Below, in pieces: positions 20,534 to 48,175 of a DNA stretch of 64,000 bases (position 1 is the first letter of the stretch; each line of letters starts with the position of its first letter). The notes below the pieces were generated by a model. It was not told the DNA's origin and did not search any database. It saw nothing but the letters and a program-made list of their open reading frames with translations. Both the position numbers and the translations under genes were made by a program. Source of the DNA: Bacteroidota bacterium (GTDB lineage Bacteria; Bacteroidota; Bacteroidia; UBA4408); contig CAUJCU010000021.1 in NCBI GenBank assembly GCA_963169745.1, positions 186,001-250,000 of the forward strand, given 5' to 3'.

Positions 20534-20536
20534 GGT

Positions 20537-21832: not shown

Positions 21833-21851
21833 TACTTCTTTTTTTAAATTG

Positions 21852-23015: not shown

Positions 23016-23035
23016 TACTTTATTTTTAGTTATCA

Positions 23036-23043
23036 CAAAATAA
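23036..23043 (-). promoter_or_regulatory. -7 element for bcrCBA (TTATTTTG on minus strand)
   Basis: Read on the minus strand, TTATTTTG matches TAnnTTTG at 7 of 8 positions. Its upstream edge lies 29.5 bp from the centre of the palindrome at 23065-23080, the spacing of a class II (-41.5) activator site. It decides the bcrC start in favour of ATG 23015. Confidence 0.5.
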
Positions 23044-24559: not shown

Positions 24560-25303
24560 ATGATGACAGAAAAAAGAATAGCCATAGTAACTGGATCGGC
24601 CAAGGGAATAGGAAAAGCTATTGTTAAGAGACTAATTGAAGATAACTATTTTATTATTGCTGTGGACATTGATGACTTCGAAGGAGCAAGGTTATTACAT
24701 GAATTTGGGCAAGAGGAAATCATTTATATTAACTGTGATATAACTGATGAAAAACAGGTTCAGGAACTGTTTCATAGAATGATAAATGCCTATACAAAAT
24801 TAGATTTATTAATTAATAATGCAGGAATTATCAAAGATGATGCAATTTGGAATATGAGCATTGAAAATTTTGATTTAGTTATTGATGTTAACTTAAAAGG
24901 AACGTGGATAATGTGTCGCGAGGCAGCAAAAATTTTTAAGGAGCAGAAAAAGGGGAGGATAGTAAATATCTCCTCGCGAGCATGGCTGGGTAATTTTGGA
25001 CAAAGTAACTATGCTGCATCAAAAGCAGGAGTAGTGGCTCTAACTCGTGTACTTGCTCTTGAACTTGGAAAATACAATGTGTTGGTAAATGCTGTTGCTC
25101 CCGGACTTATTGATACACCACTGACACAAAAATTAGAACAACATGTTTTGAAAAGATTAATTGAAGCGCAACCAACCAAAACTATGGGCAGTACAGACGA
25201 TGTAGCCCATGTGGTGTCCTTTTTGGCGTCAGATCAAACACGCTTTATTACTGGACAAACAATTTATGTTGATGGTGGAAAAAGCATAGGAGCTGGTATA
25301 TAA
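24560..25303 (+). CDS. short-chain dehydrogenase/reductase, FabG-like
   Basis: 247 residues, classical SDR. The cofactor loop is TGSAKGIGKAI. NNAG (LLINNAGIIKD), the catalytic Ser (VNISSRAW), YAASK, and PGLIDTPLT followed by the C-terminal YVDGGKSIGAG are all present. The Asp after beta-2 (AVDIDD) favours NAD(H). It lies between the Mo-maturation genes and hydroxybenzoyl-CoA reductase. It may oxidise a hydroxyacyl-CoA of the lower pathway, such as 3-hydroxypimeloyl-CoA, or act on a peripheral aromatic alcohol. I cannot choose between these. Confidence 0.75.
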   Translation: MMTEKRIAIVTGSAKGIGKAIVKRLIEDNYFIIAVDIDDFEGARLLHEFGQEEIIYINCDITDEKQVQELFHRMINAYTKLDLLINNAGIIKDDAIWNMSIENFDLVIDVNLKGTWIMCREAAKIFKEQKKGRIVNISSRAWLGNFGQSNYAASKAGVVALTRVLALELGKYNVLVNAVAPGLIDTPLTQKLEQHVLKRLIEAQPTKTMGSTDDVAHVVSFLASDQTRFITGQTIYVDGGKSIGAGI

Positions 25304-25323: not shown

Positions 25324-28128
25324 ATGAGGCCAATCAATATTAAAATTAATGGAAGAAAGTACAAACTCTTGGTTGATGATCACGAGCTTTTATCTAATGT
25401 TATCCGTAATAAAATAGGACTTACAGGAACCAAGATAGGTTGCGAGCAGGGTAGCTGTGGGGCTTGTACAGTATTGGTAAATGAAAACCCTACTTTGAGT
25501 TGTATAACACCTGCTTTACGATGCAACAATACCGAAATACTTACTATTGAAGCTTTGGCCAAAGACGGAGAACTTCACCACTTACAACAAAAATTTGTAG
25601 AGAAAGGAGCTATTCAATGTGGATTTTGCACTCCAGGCATGGTCATTACAGCACTTGATTTTGTCAATAACAATCCAGATCCTTCTGTTGAAGAAATTAA
25701 GGGAGCACTTTCAGGAAATTTGTGTCGTTGCACCGGATATAAAAAAATTATTGAAGCTGTTGCAGAATTTATAAAAGAATCAAACCAGATAACTGAGGGG
25801 AGTTACAACGAGCAGCAAAAAAATGGGAAAACAAATGAATCGTTTGGCGCTATTGGAAAAGGCAGACCTTATATTGAGGCTGAAAAGAAAGTAAAAGGCA
25901 CAGCAGAATATGCTGATGATATTGCTGTAAGAAATGCTTTACATTGTAAGTTTCTTAGAAGTATCTACCCGCATGCAAAGATCGAAAGTATTGATATTTC
26001 TGAAGCATTAAAATTAGATGGTGTACATTACATTTCTACCGGAAAAGAACTGCCTGTTAAATTCGGAGTGCTCCCAATTTCTCAGGATGAAACGGCTATG
26101 GCTGTTGATAAAGTAAGGTATATTGGTGAAATTGTAGCTGCTGTAGCTGCCGATACAGAGGAGATTGCTGCTGAGGCTTGTAACCGTATTAAGGTCGGGT
26201 ATAAACCAATTAAAGAATTTGTTGAAATTGATGACTCAATAAACGATATTGGTAATTATGAAAAAATTCATGATCATACTAAATTCAACAATAATATACA
26301 TAAGAAAGCAGAGTTGCGTTTTGGCGACCAGCAGCAGGGTTTAAAAAACTCCTTTGCTATCAGTAAAATGTCGTTTACTTTTGAGGGAATTAGCCATGGT
26401 TTTACTGAGCCACATGCTGCAACAGCATGGTGGGATGAAAACGGGCTAACTATAATTACTGCAACGCAAGTACCTCATTACTTGCACCGTGCACTGGCAA
26501 AAGTTATGGAAGTACCTTTAAGTCGTGTACGAGTTATTAAACCATACGTTGGAGGAGGTTTTGGAGGTAAAAGTGATCCTTTCCCTCACGAAGTGATTAT
26601 AGCGCATCTGGCGCGTAAAACAGGTCGTCCAGTACGGGTTCGTTTTTCTAGAGAAGAGGTTTTTCTAACCAATCATGGACGTCATCCTTCTAAAATGACT
26701 GTTGAGATGGGTCTTGCAGAAGACGGAACATTTAATGCTCTGGATGCAGACATAGCTATTGATGGAGGAGCTTATGGTAGTTTTGGTGTGGTTACATCGT
26801 ATTATAATGGAGTGCTGCTTCAGGCGCCATACAAGCTCAGTAATTTTGGGTTTAAAACCTATCGGGTTTATACCAATAAACCTCAATGTGGAGCTATGCG
26901 AGGCCATGGTGCTGTAAATTCACGCTTTGCTGTAGAAACGTTAATTGATGATTTGGCACATCAGTTAAAGATGGATCCGTGTGAAATAAGACTAAAAAAC
27001 TTTTTAGACTCCAATACACTTACTGTAGGCCAATATCGTATTACATCAAACGGCAGCCGCGAATCATTACAGAAGGTTATGGAGCAATCAGAATGGAAAA
27101 GTCGCTTTGGGAAATTAGAATACGGGCACGGCATTGGTGTAGGATGTGGATTTTTTATTAGCGGAAGTGCTTTACCTATCATCTGGAACGAATTGCCTCA
27201 GTCGGTGGTGCATTTGAAAGTTGATTTTGATGGGCGGGTAGTTATTACCTCAGGCGCCAGCGATATTGGACAAGGGAGTGATACGATGTTGGCTATGATT
27301 GTTTCAGAAGTATTAGGAATTAGTATGGATAAAGTGTTTGTGCTTGCAGCCGATACTTTACTTACTCCGGTAGATATGGGAAGTTATTCTAGTCGAGTAA
27401 CTTTCATGGCTGGTAATGCAGCTAAGATGGCTGCAGAAAATTTGAAAAAAGAAATAACAGAGGCTATTGTAAAAAAGAGAGGAATTGCAGAAACAGAGCT
27501 GAATTTCTCTGATAACTGCGTTGTTAGTAATGATAAAGAGGTTAACTTATCATGGATCGAAGCCATTGATATTCTTACAGCAAACCGAGGTGCAGTAAGT
27601 GTTAGCGGAAAATATATATCACCCAAACTGGGAGGCGATTTTAAAGGAGCAGGTGCAGGACTTAGTCCATCATATAGCTTTGGGGCTTGCATTGCCGAAG
27701 TTAAGGTGAATTTGGAAACAGGCTTTGTAAAAGTACTCCATGTGTGGGGGGCACACGATTGTGGTAAGGCAATAAATCCATTGGCTGTTCAGGGACAGCT
27801 GGAGGGTTCGTGGCACATGGGAATAGGTCAGGCTATGTCCGAGCAAATGCGCTATCATAACGGATTGTTGCTAAATAACAATTTTCTGGATTACAGAATA
27901 CCTACTTCTCTCGATACCCCGGATATTCATACCAATATAATTGAAACGAATGACCCAGAAGGACCATTTGGAGCTAAAGAATGTGGTGAAGGTGCTTTAC
28001 ACCCGGTTATGCCGGCTATAGGGAATGCTATTTACAATGCTGTTGGTGTGCGTATTACCAACCTGCCCATAAGTGCTGAGGAAATACTTAAAAAGATGAA
28101 AGAAAAAAATAAATATCAGCAAGTATGA
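25324..28128 (+). CDS. 4-hydroxybenzoyl-CoA reductase, fused small [2Fe-2S] and large Mo subunits
   Basis: 934 residues. Residues 1-155 are the two-cluster small subunit: plant-type [2Fe-2S] Cys40/45/48/60 (CEQGSCGAC) and second cluster Cys99/102/134/136 (CGFC, CRC). A ~25-residue linker leads to the molybdopterin subunit (~175-934) with GGGFGGKSDPFPHE, GGAYGSFG, MRGHGAVNSRFAVE and GPFGAKECGEGALHPV, the last holding the catalytic Glu. In known 4-hydroxybenzoyl-CoA reductases these are separate HcrC and HcrA chains, so the fusion is unusual. It removes the 4-hydroxyl to give benzoyl-CoA. Its TGA overlaps the hcrB start by 4 bp. Alternative: another aromatic or purine hydroxylase. Confidence 0.8.
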   Translation: MRPINIKINGRKYKLLVDDHELLSNVIRNKIGLTGTKIGCEQGSCGACTVLVNENPTLSCITPALRCNNTEILTIEALAKDGELHHLQQKFVEKGAIQCGFCTPGMVITALDFVNNNPDPSVEEIKGALSGNLCRCTGYKKIIEAVAEFIKESNQITEGSYNEQQKNGKTNESFGAIGKGRPYIEAEKKVKGTAEYADDIAVRNALHCKFLRSIYPHAKIESIDISEALKLDGVHYISTGKELPVKFGVLPISQDETAMAVDKVRYIGEIVAAVAADTEEIAAEACNRIKVGYKPIKEFVEIDDSINDIGNYEKIHDHTKFNNNIHKKAELRFGDQQQGLKNSFAISKMSFTFEGISHGFTEPHAATAWWDENGLTIITATQVPHYLHRALAKVMEVPLSRVRVIKPYVGGGFGGKSDPFPHEVIIAHLARKTGRPVRVRFSREEVFLTNHGRHPSKMTVEMGLAEDGTFNALDADIAIDGGAYGSFGVVTSYYNGVLLQAPYKLSNFGFKTYRVYTNKPQCGAMRGHGAVNSRFAVETLIDDLAHQLKMDPCEIRLKNFLDSNTLTVGQYRITSNGSRESLQKVMEQSEWKSRFGKLEYGHGIGVGCGFFISGSALPIIWNELPQSVVHLKVDFDGRVVITSGASDIGQGSDTMLAMIVSEVLGISMDKVFVLAADTLLTPVDMGSYSSRVTFMAGNAAKMAAENLKKEITEAIVKKRGIAETELNFSDNCVVSNDKEVNLSWIEAIDILTANRGAVSVSGKYISPKLGGDFKGAGAGLSPSYSFGACIAEVKVNLETGFVKVLHVWGAHDCGKAINPLAVQGQLEGSWHMGIGQAMSEQMRYHNGLLLNNNFLDYRIPTSLDTPDIHTNIIETNDPEGPFGAKECGEGALHPVMPAIGNAIYNAVGVRITNLPISAEEILKKMKEKNKYQQV

Positions 28129-29060
28129 TACAAAAAGAAAGAACATACTTCCAACCTCATTCTGCTGAAGAGGCTGTTAACATTGCACATAAACATGAAA
28201 ACGAGTCATGCTTTATTGCCGGTGGAACAGATGTAATGGTTAATAAGTTTCAAGGGAATAATGAATTTTCTTGTTTTATTGATATTACCGGTATTTCTGA
28301 AATGAAACAAATTTCGGTACAGGATAATTATTTAAAAATAGGTTCTTTAGTTACACTTGACAACATAACGAAACATACCCAAATAAAAAATAATTTTCCT
28401 TTATTAATACAGGCAGCTAATGCTATAGCCTCTCCTGTTATCAGAAAAACGGCTACTGTTGGGGGTAATTTACTTTGCGAAAACCGCTGTGTATATTACA
28501 ATCAGAGCACCTGGTGGCGTGAAGCTGTTGGACACTGCCTTAAATGCGATGGTGATATATGTATTGCCACTGGAGGTAAAAAAAATTGCTTCTCAAAATT
28601 TGTTTCCGACTTGGCTGTTGCATTGATTTGTATGGATTCCAACATTGAGGTTGTGGAACATGGTGGAAGCTATATTGCTCCATTAGAAAACTTGTATAGC
28701 GGTGATGGTGTAAACCCTCATAAACTAAAAAAATCAACACTAATTAAATATATTCATATTCCCTTGCAGCAAGACTTTCGGTTTGCATTTAAAAAACTGC
28801 GCCAACGCGAAAGTATGGAATTTAGTTCATTAACTACTGCTGTTACAAGAAATAAACACGGCAAAATAAAAATTGTACTTGGAGGTGTTGATCCACGTCC
28901 TGTTGTTGTTGAAGGCACTCATGGCAATAATGAACAAGATTTAATTAAACAAGCTGTAAAGAAAACAAGAATCGTAGATAACGATGTATTCTCACGCCAA
29001 TATCGTAAAGATATGATTAGTGTTTTTCTAAATCAAAGCTTTCAAGAAATTGCTGTTTAA
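28125..29060 (+). CDS. hcrB: 4-hydroxybenzoyl-CoA reductase FAD/[4Fe-4S] subunit (HcrB-like)
   Basis: 311 residues, FAD-binding CO-dehydrogenase-flavoprotein fold: FIAGGTDVMVNK and TATVGGNLL bind FAD. The diagnostic feature is an inserted loop with Cys122, Cys138, Cys146 and Cys155 around CVYYNQSTWWREAVGHC. As I recall, the Thauera enzyme binds its extra [4Fe-4S] cluster at Cys122/138/146/155, an exact match in number and spacing. This insert separates 4-hydroxybenzoyl-CoA reductases, which run backwards with ferredoxin electrons, from xanthine dehydrogenases. It is coupled to the Mo subunit by a 4 bp ATGA overlap. Confidence 0.88.
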   Translation: MIQKERTYFQPHSAEEAVNIAHKHENESCFIAGGTDVMVNKFQGNNEFSCFIDITGISEMKQISVQDNYLKIGSLVTLDNITKHTQIKNNFPLLIQAANAIASPVIRKTATVGGNLLCENRCVYYNQSTWWREAVGHCLKCDGDICIATGGKKNCFSKFVSDLAVALICMDSNIEVVEHGGSYIAPLENLYSGDGVNPHKLKKSTLIKYIHIPLQQDFRFAFKKLRQRESMEFSSLTTAVTRNKHGKIKIVLGGVDPRPVVVEGTHGNNEQDLIKQAVKKTRIVDNDVFSRQYRKDMISVFLNQSFQEIAV

Positions 29061-30706: not shown

Positions 30707-31558
30707 ATGCTACAAAATATGGAAGAAAAAACGTACACCATGGGAATTGACGTTGGTTCCAACTTTATTAAGTTGGTGCTGGTTGATTATGATAGTCAAT
30801 CAAAAATTATTGATAAGCATACTGAGAAAATTAGAAAACGAAACCCTACTCAAGTTGCTGATGAGATGATCCAGAATATGCTGAACAAACACAAACTCAA
30901 GTATGAAAACATTGCATATCTTGCCTCAACGGGTGAAGGAGATTTGGTAAAACGCAAACGAGGCCATTTTTATGGAATGACAACTCATGCCAAAGGAGCA
31001 AACTTCTTTTTCCCCGATGGGCGTACTATTGTTGATATGGGTGCCTTGTATGTAAGAGCCATAAAGGTTTCACCAGATGCCCGGGTTGAGGACTATAAAA
31101 TGACCGGGCAATGTGCCTCCGGTTCAGGTCAATTTGTTGAAAATATCTCGCGTTATCTTGGGTTATCTATCGAAGAGGTGGGTGATGTTTCACTCCAATC
31201 AGATACGCCTGAAGTTTCCTCCGGAATTTGTGCTGTACTGGCAGAAACGGATGTCATCAATATGGTATCTCGAGGTATCTCTACACCCAATATTATTAAA
31301 GGTATCCATATTTCAATTGCCAACCGAATTATTAAACTGTTAAGTTCATTAAAGGCCGAGTCACCAATTATTTTAACAGGAGGTATGGCCTTAAACAAAG
31401 GTATGATGCAAGCCATAGAAGAACAATTGGCCGAATCAGGTAAAAAGTTTGATATAAAGACACATCCTGATGCTATTTATGCTGGTGCCATAGGTGCTGC
31501 ATTATGGGGAGGATACCGCCACTTCAAACTAAAAGAAAAACAATCAATGGCTGTATGA
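30707..31558 (+). CDS. bcrD: benzoyl-CoA reductase ATPase subunit D (BcrD/BadG-like)
   Basis: 283 residues, the same length I recall for Thauera BcrD. ASKHA ATPase with GIDVGSNFIKLVLVD, STGEGD, and [4Fe-4S] ligands Cys136 (TGQCASGSGQF) and Cys175 (SSGICAVLAETD). The phosphate-2 motif reads VDMGALYVRAI instead of DIGGQDTKAI, a variation I associate with the BcrD/BadG type. It pairs with BcrA to share one cluster and drive electrons with ATP. It is first gene of a nine-gene operon, separate from bcrCBA. The alternative start ATG 30722 cannot be excluded. Its stop overlaps the ligase start (ATGA). Confidence 0.85.
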   Translation: MLQNMEEKTYTMGIDVGSNFIKLVLVDYDSQSKIIDKHTEKIRKRNPTQVADEMIQNMLNKHKLKYENIAYLASTGEGDLVKRKRGHFYGMTTHAKGANFFFPDGRTIVDMGALYVRAIKVSPDARVEDYKMTGQCASGSGQFVENISRYLGLSIEEVGDVSLQSDTPEVSSGICAVLAETDVINMVSRGISTPNIIKGIHISIANRIIKLLSSLKAESPIILTGGMALNKGMMQAIEEQLAESGKKFDIKTHPDAIYAGAIGAALWGGYRHFKLKEKQSMAV

Positions 31559-33297
31559 TGTTGTATCTTGAATCGGATAAAAAATTAGGCACTGTTGTTC
31601 ACAATATTGCTACGCTGCTAGAAAGAAATTCTATTCTTTTTGCTGATAAAATGATTTATGCCGAAAAGCATAACGGCAATTACAAAGGAATAACTTGGAA
31701 GGACTTTTATAAGAATGTTCAGAATATTGCCGGAAACCTGAAAAGGCATGGATTTGAAAGTGGGGATAAAATGATGGTGTATTCTCCTAATAGGCTCGAA
31801 ATGTTGGAAATGGAAATGGCTGTAATGGCCTCTGGAGGCATCAGCGTTCCTATCTTTGCCTATTTTCATACCGAAACAGCAACCTTGCTTTTTAAACATT
31901 CAGATGCAAGATTTATTGCCGTTGCAGGTGATTTACAGTATAACAGAATAAGACACTTACAACCAGAAAAATTAATTTTGTTTGACAAATTAGAAACATC
32001 GGATAAAAATATTCTCTTTTTTGATGCATTGCTAGCAGATACTCCACAGGCAAAGGATGCCTTGGTTTTTGATGCACCCCCTGATGCTATTTGTCTCAAT
32101 ATGTACACCTCCGGCACTATGGGCACCCCTAAATGTGTACAACTTACACATCAAAATATTCTTTCACAGCAGGCTGCACTTGGGCAAATATGGAATCTTG
32201 ACGAGCATGACCGTTTTCTCTCATATTTGCCGTGGCACCACAGCTTTGGTGGAATTTTTGAACGATTTTCAGCACTTTACAATGGCGCTACGATATACCT
32301 TGAATCCAGCTATGGTAAAGACCCAAAAGAAATTATGACTAACTGGAAATTAATTCAACCAACTTTGTTTTTAAGCGTTCCCAAAGTTTATCAATCGCTT
32401 GTTGATCTAGCTAAATCAGATTCTGAAATTGAAAAACTGTTTTATCATTCAGGATTAAAATTTGTATTTACAGCTGCCGCTCCATTGCCTTCAAACATTT
32501 CAGCTGAATTTGAAAAACGCAATGTTTCCGTAGTCGAAGGATGGGGGCTTACAGAAACCTCTCCGTGCTGTACGCTAACCGATCCGAGTATTAAACGAGA
32601 AAATGGCGTAGTAGGAAAACCAATACCGGGAGTGCGTATTCGCGTTACTGATGATGGTGAAATTGAAGTGAAAGGTCCTCATGTTATGAAAAGTTATTAC
32701 CATAATAATGAAGCCAACAGTACAGCTTTTACACCAGATGGTTGGTACCGTACCGGAGATGTTGGGCAAATTGTAGATTCAGGTTTAAAATTAATTACTC
32801 GTAAGGACAGAATATTTAAACTTACCAATGGCGAAAAAGTTATTCCAACCGAAATGGAAGCATTGATACAAGCAAAATGTCACTATATCACTTTTGCTAT
32901 GATTGTTGGTGAAGGTTCAGAATACCCTGTGGCATTATTATTCCCGAATAAAAAAGCCTTAGATCATCCTAATTATGAACTGTCGCCCGAAGAAGGATGC
33001 TTTTGTCCGAGAAGCCTTAATGAGTTGGGGAAATGCCTGCATGGTTGCTTGCATGACACTAATTGCGGACTGGCACAGAAGTTCTCTAAGATAAAATACG
33101 CCATGGTAATTGACGATGAGTTGAGTATTGAAAACAATACACTCACGCCATCTATGAAAGTGGCTCCCAAGAAAGTAATGGAAGCTTATAAAGCACATAT
33201 CGAAAATTTATATGGAGCTAAGAACAAAATAAGCGAAGAAGTTTACGTAATTAGACTTGATACCGAAGAGAAAATAAACAAAAAAATTGAAATTTAA
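31555..33297 (+). CDS. AMP-forming acyl-CoA ligase with cysteine-rich insert
   Basis: 580 residues from ATG 31555, which overlaps bcrD by 4 bp. ANL-superfamily signatures: MYTSGTMGTPKCVQLTH (P-loop-like A3), EGWGLTETS (A5), GWYRTGDVG (A7), KDRIFKLTNGEKVIP (A8). The C-terminal domain ends with LTPSMKVAPKKV carrying a likely catalytic Lys. It probably activates benzoate or 4-hydroxybenzoate with ATP and CoA, feeding the pathway. Overall it looks closer to long-chain acyl-CoA ligases than to classical benzoate-CoA ligases, so another carboxylate is possible. Odd feature: Cys482, 484, 494, 498 and 504 cluster in a C-terminal-domain insert (CFCPRSLNELGKC, HGC, TNC). Confidence 0.82.
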   Translation: MMLYLESDKKLGTVVHNIATLLERNSILFADKMIYAEKHNGNYKGITWKDFYKNVQNIAGNLKRHGFESGDKMMVYSPNRLEMLEMEMAVMASGGISVPIFAYFHTETATLLFKHSDARFIAVAGDLQYNRIRHLQPEKLILFDKLETSDKNILFFDALLADTPQAKDALVFDAPPDAICLNMYTSGTMGTPKCVQLTHQNILSQQAALGQIWNLDEHDRFLSYLPWHHSFGGIFERFSALYNGATIYLESSYGKDPKEIMTNWKLIQPTLFLSVPKVYQSLVDLAKSDSEIEKLFYHSGLKFVFTAAAPLPSNISAEFEKRNVSVVEGWGLTETSPCCTLTDPSIKRENGVVGKPIPGVRIRVTDDGEIEVKGPHVMKSYYHNNEANSTAFTPDGWYRTGDVGQIVDSGLKLITRKDRIFKLTNGEKVIPTEMEALIQAKCHYITFAMIVGEGSEYPVALLFPNKKALDHPNYELSPEEGCFCPRSLNELGKCLHGCLHDTNCGLAQKFSKIKYAMVIDDELSIENNTLTPSMKVAPKKVMEAYKAHIENLYGAKNKISEEVYVIRLDTEEKINKKIEI

Positions 33298-34512: not shown

Positions 34513-36336
34513 ATGGAAAGCCATGACAGAAAAAAAACAGGCATCATAGGTTTAGGACCTGTTGGTATGATTCTGGCTGTACATCTGCGCGAAGCCGGAC
34601 ATGATGTTATCTTATGTGATAATGATAAAGTAAAAATAAATCAAATTAGAAATGAAGGAATTCGTCTCGAAAACGTAATTCAAAAAACAGCTAAGTTTGA
34701 AAATATTGCTTCCTCATCAAAAGAATTACTCGAGCAAAACCCTGATTTTGTATTTATGTCCGTAAAAACATATCAAGTTGAAAGTATATTAAATGAAATT
34801 CCTGCTGATAATACTTCTGTTTTTATTTGCGCTCAGAACGGAATAGATCCTGAACTGATGGTAGCTAACAAATTAGGAGAACAACGAACTATGCGTATGG
34901 TAATTAACTTTGCAGGTAATCTTACTGCTGCAAATTGTGCCAAAGTAACTTTTTTTAATGCTCCTAATTATATTGCCTGCTTAGATGATCATAAAAGAAA
35001 TTATGCCGAAGAAATAGCCGCAGCGCTCAATGCTGTTCAACTCGATACAAAGGCTATCAGCTCTTTTGAGCTCACAAAGTCAACCTGGAAAAAAACCATT
35101 TTAAATTCATCATTAAGCGCCTTGTGCGGTATTGGAAAGTTCACTATGGCCGAAGCTATGGTTTTTCCGGACACTATTGAATTAATAGAACAAATTATTC
35201 AGGAAGCTATTGAAGTGGCTGAAGCTGAAAAAATTCGCTTCCCTGACGATTTTGTAAGAAACTGTTTACGCTATCTTAAAAAAGGGGGTAACCACTTTCC
35301 GTCTCTTGCTGGAGACTTAATTAACAATCGCCCTACCGAGATAGACTATATGAATGGGAAGATTGTAGAATACGGTCGTAAACATTATATCAGAACACCA
35401 TTAAATCTTTCTATGGTGAATATGGTAAAAGCAATGACACATAAAAATATGCTTACCCAGTTCTCTGAAAAGGCTAGCGGTTCAACAAAATTAAGGCTCC
35501 AGTTAAAAGCAAATTGTCAACCTAAAGGCAATTGTTTTCTTGGAATAGACTTAGGTTCAGCATACACCAAGTTCACGGTAATTGATGAAACAAAAAATGT
35601 GGTCTTCCGCTATATTTTAAAAACACTAAATCGCGATAAAATTGCATCTAAACATATTATTACAGCCATTCAGGAAGAATTTCCTATCAAATACAGTTGT
35701 GCTACCGGTTACGGACGAAAAAATTTTATAGATGCCGATATAGTCAAAACTGAAATTAACTGCGCTGCAATGGGTGTTAATGAGTTATTATATGGGGCTA
35801 AAAACATTCTCGACATTGGTGGAGAAGATATCAAAATGATTCATTGCGACAAAGAAGGAAAGGTTGAAAATTTTTATCTTAATGATAAATGCGCTGCCGG
35901 CACGGGCGCATTTCTTACTGAAATTGCTGAAAGAGCCGGAATTGATATCAAAGAGATGAGCCAACTGGCCTTGCAGTCAGAATACAATCAAGAGCTGAAT
36001 AGCTTTTGTACTGTTTTCGCAAAAACCGAAATTATGAAATGGATTTTTGAAGGACAACCTATTGAAAACCTAGCTAAAGGCATTTACCTCTCTATCGGTA
36101 ATCGTATCGCAAAAATGCGTATGGATCATTCTTTGCCGGTAGTAATGATTGGTGGTGTAATAGCATACCATCCTTATTTGAAAACCTTGCTTGAACAGAA
36201 ACTTAATAAAGAAGTGATGGTGCTTAACAATTCACAGCATATTGTTTCATTGGGAGCTGCACTAATTGCCAGAGAATATGTTCTAACACATAAAAACTTA
36301 TCAGAAAACGATTTAAAACAAGAAGTAACGACATAA
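34513..36336 (+). CDS. fusion: ketopantoate-reductase-like domain + BadF/BcrA-type ATPase
   Basis: 607 residues from ATG 34513 (an earlier in-frame ATG lies inside the upstream gene). Residues 1-315 are a complete 2-dehydropantoate-2-reductase-like unit: NADP loop GLGPVG (13-18), CAQNG (106-110), a Lys in STWKKTILN (193/194), and NRPTEIDYMNG (272-282). Residues ~340-607 are a BadF/HgdC-type ATPase: GIDLGSAYTKF, ATGYGRKNF, DIGGEDIKMI, and [4Fe-4S] ligands Cys460 (DKCAAGTGAF) and Cys499 (SFCTVFAKTE). I know no characterised protein with this pair. It may couple NAD(P)H binding to an ATP-driven activator for the 33300 protein. That is inference. Confidence 0.85.
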   Translation: MESHDRKKTGIIGLGPVGMILAVHLREAGHDVILCDNDKVKINQIRNEGIRLENVIQKTAKFENIASSSKELLEQNPDFVFMSVKTYQVESILNEIPADNTSVFICAQNGIDPELMVANKLGEQRTMRMVINFAGNLTAANCAKVTFFNAPNYIACLDDHKRNYAEEIAAALNAVQLDTKAISSFELTKSTWKKTILNSSLSALCGIGKFTMAEAMVFPDTIELIEQIIQEAIEVAEAEKIRFPDDFVRNCLRYLKKGGNHFPSLAGDLINNRPTEIDYMNGKIVEYGRKHYIRTPLNLSMVNMVKAMTHKNMLTQFSEKASGSTKLRLQLKANCQPKGNCFLGIDLGSAYTKFTVIDETKNVVFRYILKTLNRDKIASKHIITAIQEEFPIKYSCATGYGRKNFIDADIVKTEINCAAMGVNELLYGAKNILDIGGEDIKMIHCDKEGKVENFYLNDKCAAGTGAFLTEIAERAGIDIKEMSQLALQSEYNQELNSFCTVFAKTEIMKWIFEGQPIENLAKGIYLSIGNRIAKMRMDHSLPVVMIGGVIAYHPYLKTLLEQKLNKEVMVLNNSQHIVSLGAALIAREYVLTHKNLSENDLKQEVTT

Positions 36337-37602
36337 ATGACTAAAGGATTTTTTCAGAAAAAAAAGGGGACAGGAATAATTTTTAATGATATATTTTTGA
36401 TAAATGGTATGCGTACTCCATTTGGAAAATTTTGTGGTACTTTATCACAAGTGTCACCAACCGACTTGGGTATTTATGCCGCACAAGCAGCACTCAAAAA
36501 ATGCCATGTAGATGGGGCTGAAATTGATCAGGTAATTACAGCTAATATTGGCCAAAGTTCTTGTGATGCCTATTTTTTACCACGCCATATTTCACTTTTC
36601 TCAGGGGTGCCTATTGAGGTTCCTTCATTAATGGTGCAGCGTATTTGTGGGTCGGGTTTTGAAACAATAGTAAGTGCTTCTGAACAGATTGCTTTGAATA
36701 AGGCTGCCTCTGTGTTGTGTGTAGGGGCAGAAAATATGTCGCTGTCGCCAACCGTATCTTTTGGGAATAGAATGGGTTATCCCTTAGGTCGGCCTGTATT
36801 TAAAGATATGCTATGGGAGGCATTAGATGACACTGCAGCCGGTTACCCAATGGGATTTACCGCAGAAAATGTGGCAAAAAAACATAAAATAACCCGTCAG
36901 GATTGTGATGAATATGCTTTGTCTTCGTTTCAGAGAGCTTTAAATGCTGCTTCACAAGGCTATTTTAAAGAAGAAATTGCAGAAGTAAGTCCGATAACTT
37001 TTGAAAGAGATGGATTAAAACCCCGCAAAACCCGTTTCTCAGGTGGAGCAAAAATTCTAACTACAGATGAACAGGTTAGAGAAACCTCTATGCAAGCTTT
37101 AGCTAAACTTCCAACGGTGTTTTCTGAAGTGGGTGTGCTAACTGCCGGTAATTGTAGTGGAATTGTTGACGGGGCTGGAGCAGCAGTGGTAGCAAATAAA
37201 TCCTTTATTCAGGAAAAAAAGATAATACCATTAACTAAAATTATTGCTGCTACAAGTTGCGGTATAGATCCTAAAATTATGGGATTGGCACCGGTTCCTG
37301 CTATAAACTTGCTTCTCGAACTTACCGGAATAAAATTAGATGACATTGGACTTTTTGAAATAAATGAAGCGTTTTCTGCTCAAATTATAGGATGTGAGAG
37401 AGAACTAAACATCGATAGAAACAAACTAAATGTAAATGGTGGTGCTATTGCTATAGGACATCCATTAGCCGCTACTGGTATTCGCCTTTCAATAACACTT
37501 TCACACCTAATGAACCAGAAAAAAATTAAATATGGAATTGCTTCTGCTTGTATTGGTGGAGGACAAGCTACTGCCATTCTATTTGAAAACACAAACATAT
37601 AG
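36337..37602 (+). CDS. thiolase (acetyl-CoA acyltransferase)
   Basis: 421 residues. Nucleophile Cys in VQRICGSGFETIV, NEAFSAQ, GGAIAIGHPLAATG with the catalytic His, and the second Cys in SACIGGGQA: all thiolase residues intact. The start ATG abuts the upstream stop. The predicted step is cleavage of 3-oxopimeloyl-CoA to glutaryl-CoA and acetyl-CoA, following Oah and a hydroxyacyl-CoA dehydrogenase. A short lysine-rich N-terminal extension (TKGFFQKKKGTG) precedes the usual start. Acetoacetyl-CoA cleavage at the end of the pathway is also possible. Confidence 0.88.
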   Translation: MTKGFFQKKKGTGIIFNDIFLINGMRTPFGKFCGTLSQVSPTDLGIYAAQAALKKCHVDGAEIDQVITANIGQSSCDAYFLPRHISLFSGVPIEVPSLMVQRICGSGFETIVSASEQIALNKAASVLCVGAENMSLSPTVSFGNRMGYPLGRPVFKDMLWEALDDTAAGYPMGFTAENVAKKHKITRQDCDEYALSSFQRALNAASQGYFKEEIAEVSPITFERDGLKPRKTRFSGGAKILTTDEQVRETSMQALAKLPTVFSEVGVLTAGNCSGIVDGAGAAVVANKSFIQEKKIIPLTKIIAATSCGIDPKIMGLAPVPAINLLLELTGIKLDDIGLFEINEAFSAQIIGCERELNIDRNKLNVNGGAIAIGHPLAATGIRLSITLSHLMNQKKIKYGIASACIGGGQATAILFENTNI

Positions 37603-37644: not shown

Positions 37645-38712
37645 ATGAGTATTGATAGAATATTTCAATGGCAAATGGTTGAACTTAAAAAAGAATTTCA
37701 ACTGGCCGAAGAAAAAAATCTTGTACTAAATGAAGATGAAGTGTTGGTAAAAATTGCCGGTTGCGGTGTGTGTCATACCGATTTAAGTTTTTGGCATGAT
37801 GGTGTGCAGACTAAACATGCTTTACCCTTAACATTAGGTCATGAAATTTCGGGAACAGTAATTTCAGGAGAAAAAAAATGGCTTCATAAAAAAGTAATAA
37901 TTCCTGCTGTATTGCCATGTGGCGAATGTGAGTTATGCAAAAAAGGGAGAAGCAATATTTGTCGTAATCAATTAATGCCCGGTAATGATTTTCATGGTGG
38001 CTTCGCTTCACACATTAAAGTTCCTTCAAAATACTTATGCGAAGTTTCAGATAAAATATTAGAAAAGTACCCCCTTGAGAAACTAGCGGTTATCGCTGAT
38101 GCCATTTCTACTCCTTATCAGGTAGTAAAAAAATCTGAAATTGAATTGGGCGATTTGGCTATTGTGATTGGTGTTGGCGGTGTAGGTATTTATGGTGCTT
38201 TGATAGCTCAAATTTTTGGGGCAAAAGTGCTTGCACTAGATATTAACGATGAAAAATTGGGTATAGCTAAACAAAATGGTATTGAGGCAACTCTTAACAT
38301 CAAGGGTCTTGATATTAAAACAATAAAAGAAAAAGTAAAAGCACTGGCTCAAGAAATGAAAGCTCCAAAATTAGGATGGAAAATTTTTGAAATTAGCGGA
38401 ACCCAAGCAGGGCAGGAACTGGCTTTTAATCTAATAACTTTTGCATCTACGCTTTCTATTGTTGGTTTTACCACCAACAAAGTGGAGGTACGCCTCAGTA
38501 ATCTTATGGCATTTGATGCCAAATTAATAGGAACTTGGGGATGCCGTTCTGAATTATATCCTGAAGTTTTAAAACTAATTGAAGAAGACAAACTTAGAAT
38601 AGATCAGTTTGTTGAAACTTTTCCGCTTTCAAAAATTAATGAAGTATTTAAAAACACTTTAGATCATAAATATACCAAACGCTCTGTTCTTGTACCTGAC
38701 TTTAAAAACTGA
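37645..38712 (+). CDS. had: 6-hydroxycyclohex-1-ene-1-carbonyl-CoA dehydrogenase
   Basis: 355 residues, zinc-type medium-chain dehydrogenase. Catalytic zinc site GCGVCHTDLSFWHDG and LGHEISGTV; structural zinc cysteines in LPCGECELCKKGRSNIC; NAD fold IGVGGVGIYGALIAQIFGA. It is placed directly before oah and dch, the order expected for the NAD-dependent oxidation of 6-hydroxycyclohexene-carbonyl-CoA to the 6-oxo compound. From sequence alone it is an alcohol dehydrogenase; the substrate follows from context. It starts 42 bp after the thiolase gene, the largest gap in this operon. Confidence 0.85.
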   Translation: MSIDRIFQWQMVELKKEFQLAEEKNLVLNEDEVLVKIAGCGVCHTDLSFWHDGVQTKHALPLTLGHEISGTVISGEKKWLHKKVIIPAVLPCGECELCKKGRSNICRNQLMPGNDFHGGFASHIKVPSKYLCEVSDKILEKYPLEKLAVIADAISTPYQVVKKSEIELGDLAIVIGVGGVGIYGALIAQIFGAKVLALDINDEKLGIAKQNGIEATLNIKGLDIKTIKEKVKALAQEMKAPKLGWKIFEISGTQAGQELAFNLITFASTLSIVGFTTNKVEVRLSNLMAFDAKLIGTWGCRSELYPEVLKLIEEDKLRIDQFVETFPLSKINEVFKNTLDHKYTKRSVLVPDFKN

Positions 38713-38716
38713 TAAA

Positions 38717-39817
38717 ATGAACCCTTTAAAAAATCATGATTTAGTTGATTCCAACTTTAAAGAAATTATTTTCGAAAAACGTTCTTGCCTCGATAATGAC
38801 GGCAATCCAGTAAATGGCTTATATAATGCTTGGATATGGCTCAATAACCCAACACAATATAACTCCTACACCACTCAAGCAGTAAAAGAAATTATCCTTG
38901 CTTTTGGACAGGCATCTAACGACCGTAGTGTGGTTGCTGTTGTGTTTACTGGTGTTGGAGATAAAGCCTTCTGTACGGGCGGAAACACAAAAGAATATGC
39001 CGAGTATTATGCCGGAAACCCACAAGAATACTCACAGTATATGCGTTTGTTTAACGATATGGTTAGTGCTATTCTTAAATGCGAGAAACCGGTTATTTGC
39101 CGCGTAAATGGCATGCGTATTGGTGGCGGACAGGAAATAGGTATGGCTTGCGATTTCTCTATAACAAGTGATATGGCTCGCTTCGGGCAAGCAGGACCAA
39201 AACATGGCAGTGCACCTATTGGAGGGGCTACTGATTTTCTGCCCCTGTTCTTGGGCATTGAACGCGCTATGGGATCTTTAACACTTTGTGAGCCATTTTC
39301 TGCTCATCAGGCTTATTACCTGGGTATTGTTACAGATATTGTTCCCGTACTTAAATACAATGGGAATTTCATAGCCAACCCAATGGTTATTACCGATAAA
39401 AATTTTGATGATTATGGCAAACTAATTTTTGGCTCTCAAAAAACAGGCGAGCAATTAAAATCGGCTAAAGAAATTATTGCTAAAGCTGAAACAGATTTAA
39501 CTTTACTTGATAGCGCTGTAAACAAACTCGCTACTAAAATACTATACACTTTCCCTAACTGTACTAACAAAACAATTTCTGAAGTTCGTAAATTTAAACT
39601 CGAACATTGGGATAAAAATAAAGAAAGCAGCCGCGAGTGGCTTGCACTCAATATGATGACAGAAGCCAAGGCTGGATTCCGTGCCTTTAATGATGGACCT
39701 AAGGATAACCGCGAAGTAGATTTTATCAAATTGCGTCAGTTGTTGGCCAATGGCAAAGCATGGAATGATGATATGCATAAAGTTATTTCACCTTTATATC
39801 AAACAGAAAAAGCTTAA
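38717..39817 (+). CDS. oah: 6-oxocyclohex-1-ene-1-carbonyl-CoA hydrolase (Oah/BamA)
   Basis: 366 residues from ATG 38717, 4 bp after had. Crotonase superfamily; longer than ordinary enoyl-CoA hydratases. It has the hallmark block GGNTKEYAEYYAGNPQEY, together with VICRVNGMRIGGGQEIG and QAGPKHGSAPIGGATDF. These are the marker motifs used to detect anaerobic aromatic degraders. It hydrates and opens the alicyclic ring to 3-hydroxypimeloyl-CoA. This is the strongest single piece of evidence that the island degrades aromatic rings by the benzoyl-CoA route. Confidence 0.93.
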   Translation: MNPLKNHDLVDSNFKEIIFEKRSCLDNDGNPVNGLYNAWIWLNNPTQYNSYTTQAVKEIILAFGQASNDRSVVAVVFTGVGDKAFCTGGNTKEYAEYYAGNPQEYSQYMRLFNDMVSAILKCEKPVICRVNGMRIGGGQEIGMACDFSITSDMARFGQAGPKHGSAPIGGATDFLPLFLGIERAMGSLTLCEPFSAHQAYYLGIVTDIVPVLKYNGNFIANPMVITDKNFDDYGKLIFGSQKTGEQLKSAKEIIAKAETDLTLLDSAVNKLATKILYTFPNCTNKTISEVRKFKLEHWDKNKESSREWLALNMMTEAKAGFRAFNDGPKDNREVDFIKLRQLLANGKAWNDDMHKVISPLYQTEKA

Positions 39818-39820
39818 GCA

Positions 39821-40594
39821 ATGAAAAAAATAAAATTAATTTATCATCATAGTAATACAGTAGCACAAATCATTTTAAATGATGGTAAGGGTAATGTGCT
39901 CGACTATGTTATGATGGAAGAACTACAAGCCTTATTTGACGAATTCAAAAATAAACCACAACTTAAGTTAATTACATTTGAAGGTGAAGGAAAACATTTT
40001 TCATTTGGAGCAAGTGTTGAAGAGCACCAGAAAGAGTTTGCTGAAGCCATGCTCAAAGGCTTTCACCGTTTGTTTTTCTCACTGCGTGATTTGGCTATTC
40101 CAACAGCAGCTAAAGTAAGCGGCCAGTGCCTTGGAGGCGGCATGGAGCTGGCGTTGATGTGTAACTTTATTTTTGCCGATAAGACTGCCATGTTTGGCCA
40201 ACCCGAAATTATATTGGGCGTTTTCCCGCCACCGGCTTCTATTATTCTTCCTGAAAAAATAGGTCTTGCTCAAGCCGAAGCACTTGTGCTAACCGGAAAA
40301 AGTATTTCTGCAAATGAAGCTAAAAGTATCGGTTTAGTAAATCATGTTTCTGATGATAAAACCAATTTGAACTCCTGGATTGATGAATGGATTGTCGAAT
40401 ATATCCTTCCAAAAAGCGCATCTTCTTTACGTTATGGTGTTAAAGCGGTACGTGCTAAATTTAATCATGTACTCAGCAATTTTTTACCACAGCTTGAAAC
40501 ACAGTATTTACAGCAGCTTATGCAGTCGCACGATGCCAATGAAGGTATCGCTTCTTTTATAGAAAAAAGAAAACCTGTTTGGGAAAACAATTAA
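39821..40594 (+). CDS. dch: cyclohexa-1,5-diene-1-carbonyl-CoA hydratase
   Basis: 257 residues, crotonase fold. FSFGASVEEHQKE in the oxyanion-hole region, KVSGQCLGGGMELALMCNF, and MFGQPEIILGVFPPPASIIL are typical of Dch. It adds water to the dienoyl-CoA made by benzoyl-CoA reductase, giving 6-hydroxycyclohex-1-ene-1-carbonyl-CoA for Had. The gap to oah is 3 bp and to the next gene 12 bp. Product specificity toward the 1,5-diene (class I reductase product) is implied by the bcr genes. Confidence 0.88.
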   Translation: MKKIKLIYHHSNTVAQIILNDGKGNVLDYVMMEELQALFDEFKNKPQLKLITFEGEGKHFSFGASVEEHQKEFAEAMLKGFHRLFFSLRDLAIPTAAKVSGQCLGGGMELALMCNFIFADKTAMFGQPEIILGVFPPPASIILPEKIGLAQAEALVLTGKSISANEAKSIGLVNHVSDDKTNLNSWIDEWIVEYILPKSASSLRYGVKAVRAKFNHVLSNFLPQLETQYLQQLMQSHDANEGIASFIEKRKPVWENN

Positions 40595-40606: not shown

Positions 40607-42619
40607 ATGAAAACTATTAGAACTGTTGGTGTTGTTGGTGCTGGTACTATGGGTGCTGCTCTTGCACAAAAATTTGCTCAGGAGGGCTTTAATGTTATTC
40701 TTGCCGACCGCGCCTTGAGCTTTGTAGAAAAAGGAATTGTTCAAATTAAAACAGTTTTTGATCAAGCAATAGAGAGACGCTTGTTTTCTCACGAACAAGT
40801 AAATAAATTTTTAAGTAATTTAAACGGAACCGAAAAATTAACCGATTTAAAAGCCTGTGATCTTATTGTTGAAGCAATCTTCGAAAATTTTGAAGCAAAA
40901 ACAGAATTGTTCAGGCAGTTATCAGAAATTGTCCCTGATGATACTATACTGGCTTCTAACACTTCTTCTTTCTCAATAACCGAACTTGCAACGGCAGTGA
41001 AAAATCCGAAACGCTTTGTTGGCTTACATTATTTTTATCATGCTGCTAAAAATCGCCTTGTCGAAATTATTCCCGGTGAAAATACGTCAGCTCAAACTCT
41101 CAAAACATCTCAGAGGTTTTCTGTTGTTTCAGGTAAAGATGCTATTGTTTGTGCTGATGCTTACGGCTTTGTAGTTAACCGTTTTTTTGTTCCCTGGCTA
41201 AATGAAGCTGTGCGCCTTTATGAAGAGCAGGTGGCTTCTATTGAAGAGATTGATTTGGTTTGTAAAGAAACATTCGGTATTGGTATGGGACCTTTTGAGC
41301 TTATGAATGCTACGGGTGTACCTGTTGCCTATCATGCCGAAAAAACCCTTGAAGTGTTTGGCAATTTATATGTCGTTGCCCAAGCCTTAAAAAATCAGGC
41401 TGAAAGTATGCAGCGATGGCCGTTTGAAAAAGCTGGAGAAATGAATCTTCAGATGGTCAAGCCCATAGCTGAAAAACAAATTAAAGAGCGAATGATGGGA
41501 GTTGTTTTCTTTATATGCGCTCAATTGTTGGACGAAAAAGTTTGTTCTGCTACTGACATCAATCGTGGTGCAAGAATTGGGTTGCAATGGAAAAAGGGAC
41601 CTATTGATTTGATGAAGAAAACAGGAGAACAACAAGTTGCTAAAATGATTCATGATATAGGTGCTTTATACCAAATGCCTTTGCCAAAATCTATCGGTAA
41701 AAACCATTGGGAAACATCTTCTGTTAAGCTCGAAATAAACGGAGTTATTGCCGTTATAACGATGGATTTACCTGAGCAACAAAATGCCCTCAGCGAAGAA
41801 ACCATGACACAACTTTACGACTGTTTTATTCAGGCTGATGAAGACCCGCGTATTGAAATAATTTACATTACAGGTACAGGAAAAGCCTTTGTTGCAGGTG
41901 CCGATATCAAATTTTTTGTCAATAAAATTAAAAATAACCTCATTGGAGATATTGAAACCTTTACAGAATTCGGTCAAAAAGTATTCCGCCTTATTGACCA
42001 TTCTAAGAAAAAAGTAATCGCTGTTATCAATGGCCTGGCACTAGGCGGTGGTCTTGAGCTTGCTCTCTGTGCAGATATTATTCTGGCACTGCCCAAAGCA
42101 CAACTTGCATTCCCCGAAACAGGTATTGGTATTTACCCCGGTCTTGGTGGAACTCAACGCAGTACGCAAAGAATAGGTGAAGGACTTAGCAAATTTCTTA
42201 TCCATACCGGTAAAACACTTTCTGCTTCCGAAGCAGAGCAAATTGGACTAGTAGATAAAGTAATTTCTTACGATGAAATGTTCAGCCTTTTCGAAGGAAA
42301 TGGCATTTTACCACAACGAAGCAGTGTATCCCTCACATCTAAATGGAAAGCCATTGAAGATTTTTTTGAAAACAATCACCTGGCCAACATCAGTAATAAC
42401 AAGCTATCTAAAAATATTTTATCACCAGAAGAAACAGAAAAAATTATAAAAACAATTCACCAAAAAGCACCAATCGCCTTACGTATTGCTGATAAACTGA
42501 TCACTGAGAAACGTGGCTGTGAATCGGAATTAGAGCACTTACACGAAATTTTTTCAACTTCCGATGCCCTACTCGGGCTTACATCTATCGGTAAGCAAGT
42601 TGCTTACGAGGGGAAATAA
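40607..42619 (+). CDS. bifunctional 3-hydroxyacyl-CoA dehydrogenase / enoyl-CoA hydratase
   Basis: 670 residues. The dehydrogenase comes first: NAD loop VGAGTMGAALAQKF (10-23), SNTSSFSITELA, GLHYFYHAAKNRLVEIIPG with the catalytic His, and a helical C-terminal domain to about 365. A crotonase domain follows (about 375-650): AFVAGADIKFF, NGLALGGGLELALCADI and FPETGIGIYPGLGGTQR with both Glu residues. This order is the reverse of FadB/FadJ. It probably oxidises 3-hydroxypimeloyl-CoA and also handles crotonyl-CoA to acetoacetyl-CoA. It is last gene of the bcrD operon. No clear terminator follows. Confidence 0.88.
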   Translation: MKTIRTVGVVGAGTMGAALAQKFAQEGFNVILADRALSFVEKGIVQIKTVFDQAIERRLFSHEQVNKFLSNLNGTEKLTDLKACDLIVEAIFENFEAKTELFRQLSEIVPDDTILASNTSSFSITELATAVKNPKRFVGLHYFYHAAKNRLVEIIPGENTSAQTLKTSQRFSVVSGKDAIVCADAYGFVVNRFFVPWLNEAVRLYEEQVASIEEIDLVCKETFGIGMGPFELMNATGVPVAYHAEKTLEVFGNLYVVAQALKNQAESMQRWPFEKAGEMNLQMVKPIAEKQIKERMMGVVFFICAQLLDEKVCSATDINRGARIGLQWKKGPIDLMKKTGEQQVAKMIHDIGALYQMPLPKSIGKNHWETSSVKLEINGVIAVITMDLPEQQNALSEETMTQLYDCFIQADEDPRIEIIYITGTGKAFVAGADIKFFVNKIKNNLIGDIETFTEFGQKVFRLIDHSKKKVIAVINGLALGGGLELALCADIILALPKAQLAFPETGIGIYPGLGGTQRSTQRIGEGLSKFLIHTGKTLSASEAEQIGLVDKVISYDEMFSLFEGNGILPQRSSVSLTSKWKAIEDFFENNHLANISNNKLSKNILSPEETEKIIKTIHQKAPIALRIADKLITEKRGCESELEHLHEIFSTSDALLGLTSIGKQVAYEGK

Positions 42620-48153: not shown

Positions 48154-48175
48154 TTACACGGGTAACTAAACTCTT

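Follow-up and report, generated by a model that had tools for sequence, protein, structure and literature searches.

The window, by which we mean the whole 64,000-nucleotide stretch of contig CAUJCU010000021.1 that was analysed, holds a gene cluster for the anaerobic breakdown of aromatic compounds which, with its complete BcrABCD set, is of the class I benzoyl-CoA reductase type. Within it lies a single gene that joins a PanE-type dehydrogenase to a HadI/HgdC-type activator ATPase, directly downstream of a gene for an HGD-D protein, here called HGDD (Table 1). Packing is tight around this gene, which starts 4 bases past the stop of HGDD and is followed at once by the thiolase gene.

Table 1. 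Features of the aromatic degradation cluster and parts of the fused protein
Feature	Position	Strand	Basis
BcrA-like ATPase subunit (bcrA)	19118..20533	-	TIGR02259, 436 bits, below cut-off of 578
BcrB (bcrB)	20537..21832	-	TIGR02260, 671 bits, above cut-off
BcrC (bcrC)	21852..23036	-	TIGR02263, 462 bits, above cut-off
SDR dehydrogenase; recurs in such clusters, often beside a second thiolase	24560..25303	+	
4-hydroxybenzoyl-CoA reductase-like fused gamma and alpha subunits	25324..28128	+	best models TIGR03193 and TIGR03194, both below cut-offs
4-hydroxybenzoyl-CoA reductase-like beta subunit	28125..29060	+	best model TIGR03195, below cut-off
Benzoyl-CoA reductase ATPase subunit (bcrD)	30707..31558	+	TIGR02261, 317 bits, above cut-off of 313
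AMP-forming acyl-CoA ligase, proposed maker of the CoA ester	31552..33297	+	profile matches
HadB-like HGD-D protein (HGDD), 402 aa	33300..34508	+	profile and fold
PanE::activator fusion	34513..36336	+	607-aa uninterrupted frame; Pfam, NCBIfam and PDB matches
Fusion: PanE/D-mandelate-dehydrogenase-like domain	aa 8-312		
Fusion: linker	about aa 312-340		
Fusion: HadI/HgdC-type activator ATPase (C460, C499)	aa 342-588		
Thiolase	36337..37602	+	profile matches
Had, 6-hydroxycyclohex-1-ene-1-carbonyl-CoA dehydrogenase	37645..38712	+	TIGR03201, above cut-off
Oah, 6-oxocyclohex-1-ene-1-carbonyl-CoA hydrolase	38714..39817	+	TIGR03200, above cut-off
Dch-like dienoyl-CoA hydratase	39821..40594	+	best model TIGR03189, 216 bits, below cut-off of 292
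Bifunctional 3-hydroxyacyl-CoA dehydrogenase/enoyl-CoA hydratase	40607..42619	+	profile matches

A first-pass annotation had called the HgdB-like neighbour of the fusion an orphan. This reading was rejected, as the full Bcr set lies in the same window, with bcrCBA (19118-23036) 10-15 kb upstream of the HGDD gene and bcrD two genes upstream of it. The gene order BcrCBAD-ligase-HGDD-PanE::Act-thiolase-Had-Oah-Dch-Hbd is conserved in relatives, and in other lineages an ADP-forming synthetase takes the place of the AMP-forming ligase. Searches of ligase families for a clue to the substrate returned generic AMP-ligases only. Two amino-acid-permease-like ORFs and one kynurenine-3-monooxygenase-like ORF, recognised by reading only, follow the aromatic cluster on its downstream side (46654-49633 and 50130-51494), and a link to amino-acid catabolism is possible. 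Four related loci (L020, L034, L045, and L071) share a conserved gene for an Nramp-like membrane protein (PF01566 in the L034 copy) close to the HGD-D or Dch gene of their benzoyl-CoA cluster.

A conserved fusion of dehydrogenase and activator

Pfam resolved the fused protein into ApbA (aa 10-142, 1.6e-18), ApbA_C (aa 188-308, 6e-27), and BcrAD_BadFG (aa 343-586, 2.4e-37), all above the gathering threshold, and both TIGR00745 apbA_panE (156 bits, cut-off 141) and TIGR00241 CoA_E_activ (174 bits, cut-off 125) matched it. These results and the open reading frame bear out the first-pass description of a complete PanE-like reductase and a complete HgdC/BadF-type ATPase in one frame, the latter with cysteines at 460 and 499. 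In an alignment of 14 fusions, every residue of the motifs GLGPVG (aa 13-18) and TEID (aa 275-278) and both cysteines are invariant, except for L14 and V17. The linker between the domains is variable and predicted to be disordered. An AlphaFold model of the full-length protein (pTM 0.53) has low inter-domain confidence, at which the packing of the two domains is not readable.

The gene at 34513-36336 is a genuine, conserved gene fusion. Among 67 related loci collected from GTDB genomes, 12 contain the same fused ORF (L005-L010, L012-L014, and L017-L019) and in L011 the junction is also open, without a stop. A 601-aa fusion is present in genome G071 (locus L098), and seven more class-level relatives found via TIGR00745, which may partly overlap the genomes of the 67-locus set, are fused with no stop across the junction. 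Since the fused ORF thus occurs in many independent genomes with stop-free junctions, a sequencing error that merged two ORFs was ruled out. The first-pass annotation had named such a read-level merge, or homologues that are always separate genes, as grounds for abandoning the fusion; stop-free homologues recur in at least 13 other Bacteroidota/Ignavibacteriota genomes and in the seven further relatives. PanE and activator are adjacent genes with a stop between them in six loci (L015, L016, L023, L024, L029, and L057), and in other lineages they lie a few genes apart within the same cluster. In the PanE tree two changes suffice for the fused state, and a single origin is also possible. Seven relatives from the same genus or family (G703-G709) all lack PanE, so that the distribution of the cluster in the genus is patchy, through gain or loss.

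As a Rosetta-stone link, the fusion predicts that the dehydrogenase and the activator work in one pathway. In the literature searched, in which subscription journals were mostly missing, we found no matching description of the fusion or of an activase tied in this way to benzoyl-CoA clusters, in line with the earlier remark that no described enzyme with this pair was known. Within the same limits, searches for benzoyl-CoA with ketopantoate reductase, for benzoyl-CoA with activase, and for Bacteroidota with 2-hydroxyacyl-CoA dehydratase returned nothing relevant.

Identity of the fused domains and of HGDD

Among solved structures, the PanE half is best matched by two D-mandelate dehydrogenases, 8wl1 (L. 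brevis, 91 bits) and 3wfi (76 bits), and the characterised ketopantoate reductases 1ks9, 8iwg, and 5ayv scored 24.7, 35, and 50 bits, respectively. By sequence, true ketopantoate reductases are more distant from the domain than D-mandelate dehydrogenases are. The domain has the features of the D-2-hydroxyacid dehydrogenase family, namely PF02558, PF08546, a GxGxxG motif, and the residues K194, N198, S264, and E276, which are invariant in the 14 fusions and which we take to be the catalytic Lys, Asn, Ser, and Glu equivalent to E. coli K176, N180, S244, and E256. D-mandelate dehydrogenases are members of the 2-ketopantoate-reductase-related D-2-hydroxyacid dehydrogenase family, and the Enterococcus enzyme was described as active on C3-branched oxoacids (PMC4230899). 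For the activator half, HadI (4eht) was the top match in the PDB, and the best solved relatives also include an MBR ATPase subunit. The two cysteines that hold the inter-subunit [4Fe-4S] cluster in the HAD system are present as C460 and C499, invariant in all 14 fusions.

By profile and predicted fold, HGDD is an alpha (active-site) type 2-hydroxyacyl-CoA dehydratase subunit that is HadB-like, not BcrB-like. A profile of 24 HGDD orthologues ranked HadB (3o3m_A, E 8.6e-72) far ahead of the next-best relatives MbdO (4.9e-48) and BzdO, with the beta subunits of dehydratases and reductases at background. HadB was also closest to the AlphaFold model of HGDD (mean pLDDT 89.6, pTM 0.90), with a TM-score of 0.91. 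HGDD scored 232 of 750 bits against the HadB equivalog model, below its cut-off, and 184 bits against TIGR02260 (BcrB; cut-off 487), which places it outside the BcrB/BzdO type. Five residues are invariant in the 24 orthologues: C77, C116, and C344 align with the three cluster cysteines, and S30 and E48 align with S37/E55 of HadB and S44/E65 of BzdO, where the Ser44/Glu65 pair contacts the cluster-bound water (PMC11971306). At position 32, HGDD has an invariant glycine in place of Trp46 of BzdO and Phe39 of HadB, which may give room for an aryl side chain.

In characterised 2-hydroxyacyl-CoA dehydratases, an alpha subunit that bears the active site forms a heterodimer with a beta subunit (PMC11574389). 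For HGDD we found no beta partner, the only PF06050 proteins in its own genome being BcrB, BcrC, and HGDD, and in the Desulfobacterota loci the HGD-D/activator pair showed no further HGD-D gene at its sides, apart from a weak one in L198. A single-gene dehydratase would be unusual, and a putative HGDD homodimer is the simplest reading. Sharing of BcrC as a partner is less likely because the HGDD gene also occurs in loci that bear BamB-type genes and in Desulfobacterota.

Association with the benzoyl-CoA pathway and partner genes

The distribution of HGDD follows that of Oah. Among 396 Bacteroidota genomes Oah is found in four, and exactly those four have an HGDD orthologue at 66% identity or above (4/4 vs. 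0/392). Among 297 Desulfobacterota genomes, 71 carry Oah and 46 an HGDD orthologue (52% identity or more, separated by a gap from matches at 39% and below); 36 of these 46 also carry Oah (odds ratio 22, Fisher p 7e-18, where p-values are indicative only, the genomes not being phylogenetically independent). The other 10 carriers have no Oah, and some of them may be incomplete; half of the Oah-bearing Desulfobacterota are without HGDD. This distribution suggests that the dehydratase module is tied to benzoyl-CoA degradation without being a universal step in it. The association with Oah, together with the absence from half of the Desulfobacterota Oah carriers, fits a feeder route and disfavours the module as a core step of the ring pathway. 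In four Bacteroidales loci (L027, L036, L053, and L054), class II genes, i.e., BamB-like genes of the aldehyde:ferredoxin-oxidoreductase family and/or HdrA/Bam-like genes, lie beside the PanE/HGD-D/activator set.

In 40 Desulfobacterota neighbourhoods, the HGD-D gene nearly always adjoins an activator gene. Eighteen of them include a 2-hydroxyacid dehydrogenase, which is of three kinds: the PanE clade, another PanE clade, or an FAD dehydrogenase of GlcD type (PF01565, PF02913, CCG). That the HGD-D/activator pair has recruited 2-hydroxyacid dehydrogenases of different kinds argues that the substrate of the dehydratase is a 2-hydroxyacid. An ADP- or AMP-forming acyl-CoA ligase is present in 23 of the 40 loci. 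No CoA-transferase FldA/HadA accompanies the dehydratase, the ligase or ADP-forming synthetase standing in that position, and a Cat1-like transferase was found in some Desulfobacterota loci only. Indolepyruvate:ferredoxin oxidoreductase (IorAB) occurs in eight loci of the 40 (TIGR03336 is above cut-off in L031) and PaaK is also recurrent, as in the order IorA-IorB-PaaK-FAD dehydrogenase-ligase-activator-HGD-D of L179; these neighbours argue for an arylpyruvate or arylacetate. The module stands beside Oah/Had/Dch-type genes in L167-L170. Two Bacteroidota/Ignavibacteriota loci, L026 and L040, contain, in this order, HGD-D, PanE, a HisC-like aminotransferase, and a second PanE copy. In a subgroup (e.g., L183-L185, L187-L189, and L191), the pair lies beside a hydroxyacyl-CoA dehydrogenase instead of a 2-hydroxyacid dehydrogenase and may differ in function. 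Six Desulfobacterota loci (L178, L180, L181, L190, L194, and L195) combine a GlcD-type FAD dehydrogenase with HdrA-like genes, recalling the glycolate-oxidase-like flavoprotein of the benzene degrader BzS1.

Proposed function and alternative readings

We propose, with about even confidence for and against, that the fusion, HGDD, and the ligase form a module that converts an aromatic 2-oxoacid via the (R)-2-hydroxyacid and its CoA ester into a cinnamoyl-type CoA and so feeds the benzoyl-CoA pathway. With NAD(P)H, the PanE-type domain would interconvert the (R)-2-hydroxyacid and an aromatic 2-oxoacid such as phenylpyruvate or 4-hydroxyphenylpyruvate, and the ligase would form the 2-hydroxyacyl-CoA. 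The activator domain would use ATP to drive a single electron from ferredoxin into the [4Fe-4S] cluster of HGDD, which would then remove water via a ketyl radical to yield a cinnamoyl- or p-coumaroyl-type CoA. Beta-oxidation enzymes could convert this product to benzoyl-CoA or 4-hydroxybenzoyl-CoA, to be consumed by the 4-hydroxybenzoyl-CoA reductase, benzoyl-CoA reductase, and Dch/Had/Oah pathway encoded nearby; the 4-hydroxybenzoyl-CoA reductase-like enzyme of the window would suit a branch that starts from tyrosine. Substrate, stereochemistry, and direction are as we infer them. The tether might serve co-assembly or stoichiometry: co-expression or assembly is more likely than channelling, because the joined steps are non-consecutive. 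The wider claim, that Bacteroidota, Ignavibacteriota, and Desulfobacterota have an undescribed feeder pathway from aromatic 2-oxoacids to benzoyl-CoA via an aryl-lactyl-CoA dehydratase that is a homodimer from a single gene and has its activator joined to a 2-hydroxyacid dehydrogenase, is more tentative, and we consider it possible but rather less probable than its opposite. The oxoacids would come from phenylalanine, tyrosine, or arylacetates via arylacetyl-CoA carboxylation. The first-pass suggestion of a new ATP-driven radical enzyme system with a tethered dehydrogenase survives in altered form, with the linked HGDD in place of a fusion standing alone beside an orphan BcrB. Of the two reactions it had offered, dehydration of a hydroxyacyl-CoA is retained; reduction of an alicyclic CoA ester is not favoured, given that HGDD is HadB-like and its partners are of the 2-oxoacid/2-hydroxyacid kind.

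Several observations do not sit easily with an aryl-lactyl-CoA dehydratase. The known enzymes are heterodimers, whereas here there is one HGD-D gene besides bcrB and bcrC; phenylpyruvate is not C3-branched like the oxoacids on which the Enterococcus D-mandelate dehydrogenase is described as active; an aminotransferase lies in the cluster in two loci only and none was identified near the module of the window; the ligase families do not reveal the substrate; and the activator resembles an MBR ATPase subunit besides HadI. The 10 Desulfobacterota carriers without Oah and the subgroup with a hydroxyacyl-CoA dehydrogenase also count against it. Those 10 carriers would suit a module that acts on a branched- or short-chain 2-hydroxyacid and is linked to benzoyl-CoA degraders only through a common amino-acid-oxidising anaerobic lifestyle, and the HadB and D-mandelate dehydrogenase relatives do accept aliphatic substrates. 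We nevertheless consider a non-aromatic substrate unlikely, as in Bacteroidota and in L167-L170 the module is physically linked within the Had/Oah/Dch/Bcr operon and as the presence of IorAB and PaaK beside it suggests arylpyruvates and arylacetates.

The same neighbours, the likeness of the PanE domain to D-mandelate dehydrogenases, and a benzoyl-CoA product that matches the Oah association could also be accommodated by an alpha-oxidation route. In that case PanE or the FAD dehydrogenase would oxidise a D-mandelate-type arylglycolate to the arylglyoxylate, a 2-oxoacid:ferredoxin oxidoreductase would form benzoyl-CoA, PaaK and the ADP-forming synthetase would handle phenylacetyl- and mandelyl-CoA, and HGDD with its activator would interconvert these two by redox at the alpha carbon. 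Mandelyl-CoA, however, has no beta hydrogen, which makes ordinary dehydration impossible, alpha-hydroxylation would need no ATP-driven low-potential electron, and HGDD is closest to a redox-neutral dehydratase; this route appears improbable. We give an equally low probability to HGDD and activator as a second ATP-dependent aryl-CoA reductase or a reductive dehydroxylase, e.g., one that acts on substituted or hydroxylated benzoyl-CoA, where PanE would oxidise an intermediate that is an alicyclic alcohol. The module is embedded in a ring-reduction operon, the BCR/HAD family holds both activities (PMC11971306), and MbdO and BzdO rank next after HadB; but HadB is nearest in sequence and fold, a BzdN/BcrC-like partner is missing, the neighbours are 2-hydroxyacid enzymes, HGDD also occurs near class II genes and in Desulfobacterota, and its absence from half of the Oah-bearing Desulfobacterota speaks against a core step. 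The least probable reading, which we consider very doubtful, is that the PanE domain serves the cell as ketopantoate reductase in CoA biosynthesis and sits in the operon as a mere passenger, in a fusion without joint function. In the source genome and in G071, indeed, no PanE other than the fusion exceeds the TIGR00745 cut-off, the unfused PanE of the cluster is the only one in G307, and PanB is present in the source genome. Against this, the domain resembles D-mandelate dehydrogenases more and stays with HGDD and activator across phyla, and all seven same-genus or same-family relatives are without PanE, which implies that the lineage makes pantoate otherwise.

If the proposed aryl-lactyl-CoA dehydratase module is correct, it would link the radical 2-hydroxyacyl-CoA dehydratases of clostridial amino-acid fermentation to the benzoyl-CoA pathway and would explain how anaerobic Bacteroidota and sulfate reducers might oxidise aromatic keto acids completely; a single-subunit system could also ease the study of this dehydratase family. 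The closest known system is HadBC with HadI from Clostridioides difficile (3o3m, 4eht): HGDD matches HadB by its sequence and fold and by its cluster cysteines, the activator half resembles HadI, and an (R)-2-hydroxyacid dehydrogenase belongs to the same pathway. Here, however, there is no HadC (beta) gene, the activator is fused to the dehydrogenase, a CoA ligase replaces the CoA-transferase HadA, and the genes sit in benzoyl-CoA clusters. The phenyllactate dehydratase FldABC with FldI of Clostridium sporogenes shares the logic of reductase, CoA activation, activator, and dehydratase and the proposed conversion of an aryl-lactyl-CoA to cinnamoyl-CoA, but has more than the single dehydratase subunit seen here, uses FldA and not a ligase, and its product is reduced to phenylpropionate, whereas ours would be oxidised to benzoyl-CoA. 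The class I benzoyl-CoA reductases (BcrABCD, MbdONPQ, and BzdNOPQ) belong to the same ATPase/active-site superfamily, and a true BcrABCD is encoded in the same window; HGDD differs from them in being nearer to HadB, in having no dedicated BcrC/BzdN-type partner, and in occurring also without a class I reductase nearby. The D-mandelate dehydrogenases 3wfi and 8wl1, which among solved structures match the PanE half best in sequence and fold, are stand-alone enzymes of lactic acid bacteria, neither fused nor linked to a dehydratase. For the benzene degrader BzS1 (2026), it was hypothesised that phenylpyruvate might go via a phenyllactyl-CoA dehydratase to cinnamoyl-CoA and benzoyl-CoA, with a glycolate-oxidase-like flavoprotein among the enzymes featured and with loose homologues only as candidates, without a dedicated dehydratase module (PMC13416013). 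The likeness to our module lies in the proposed reaction and in the flavoprotein, and does not imply orthology with HGDD. In other genomes, the HGDD module offers a better-formed candidate for this step and thus a concrete candidate gene set for the phenyllactyl-CoA-dehydratase-type reaction invoked in anaerobic benzene degradation.
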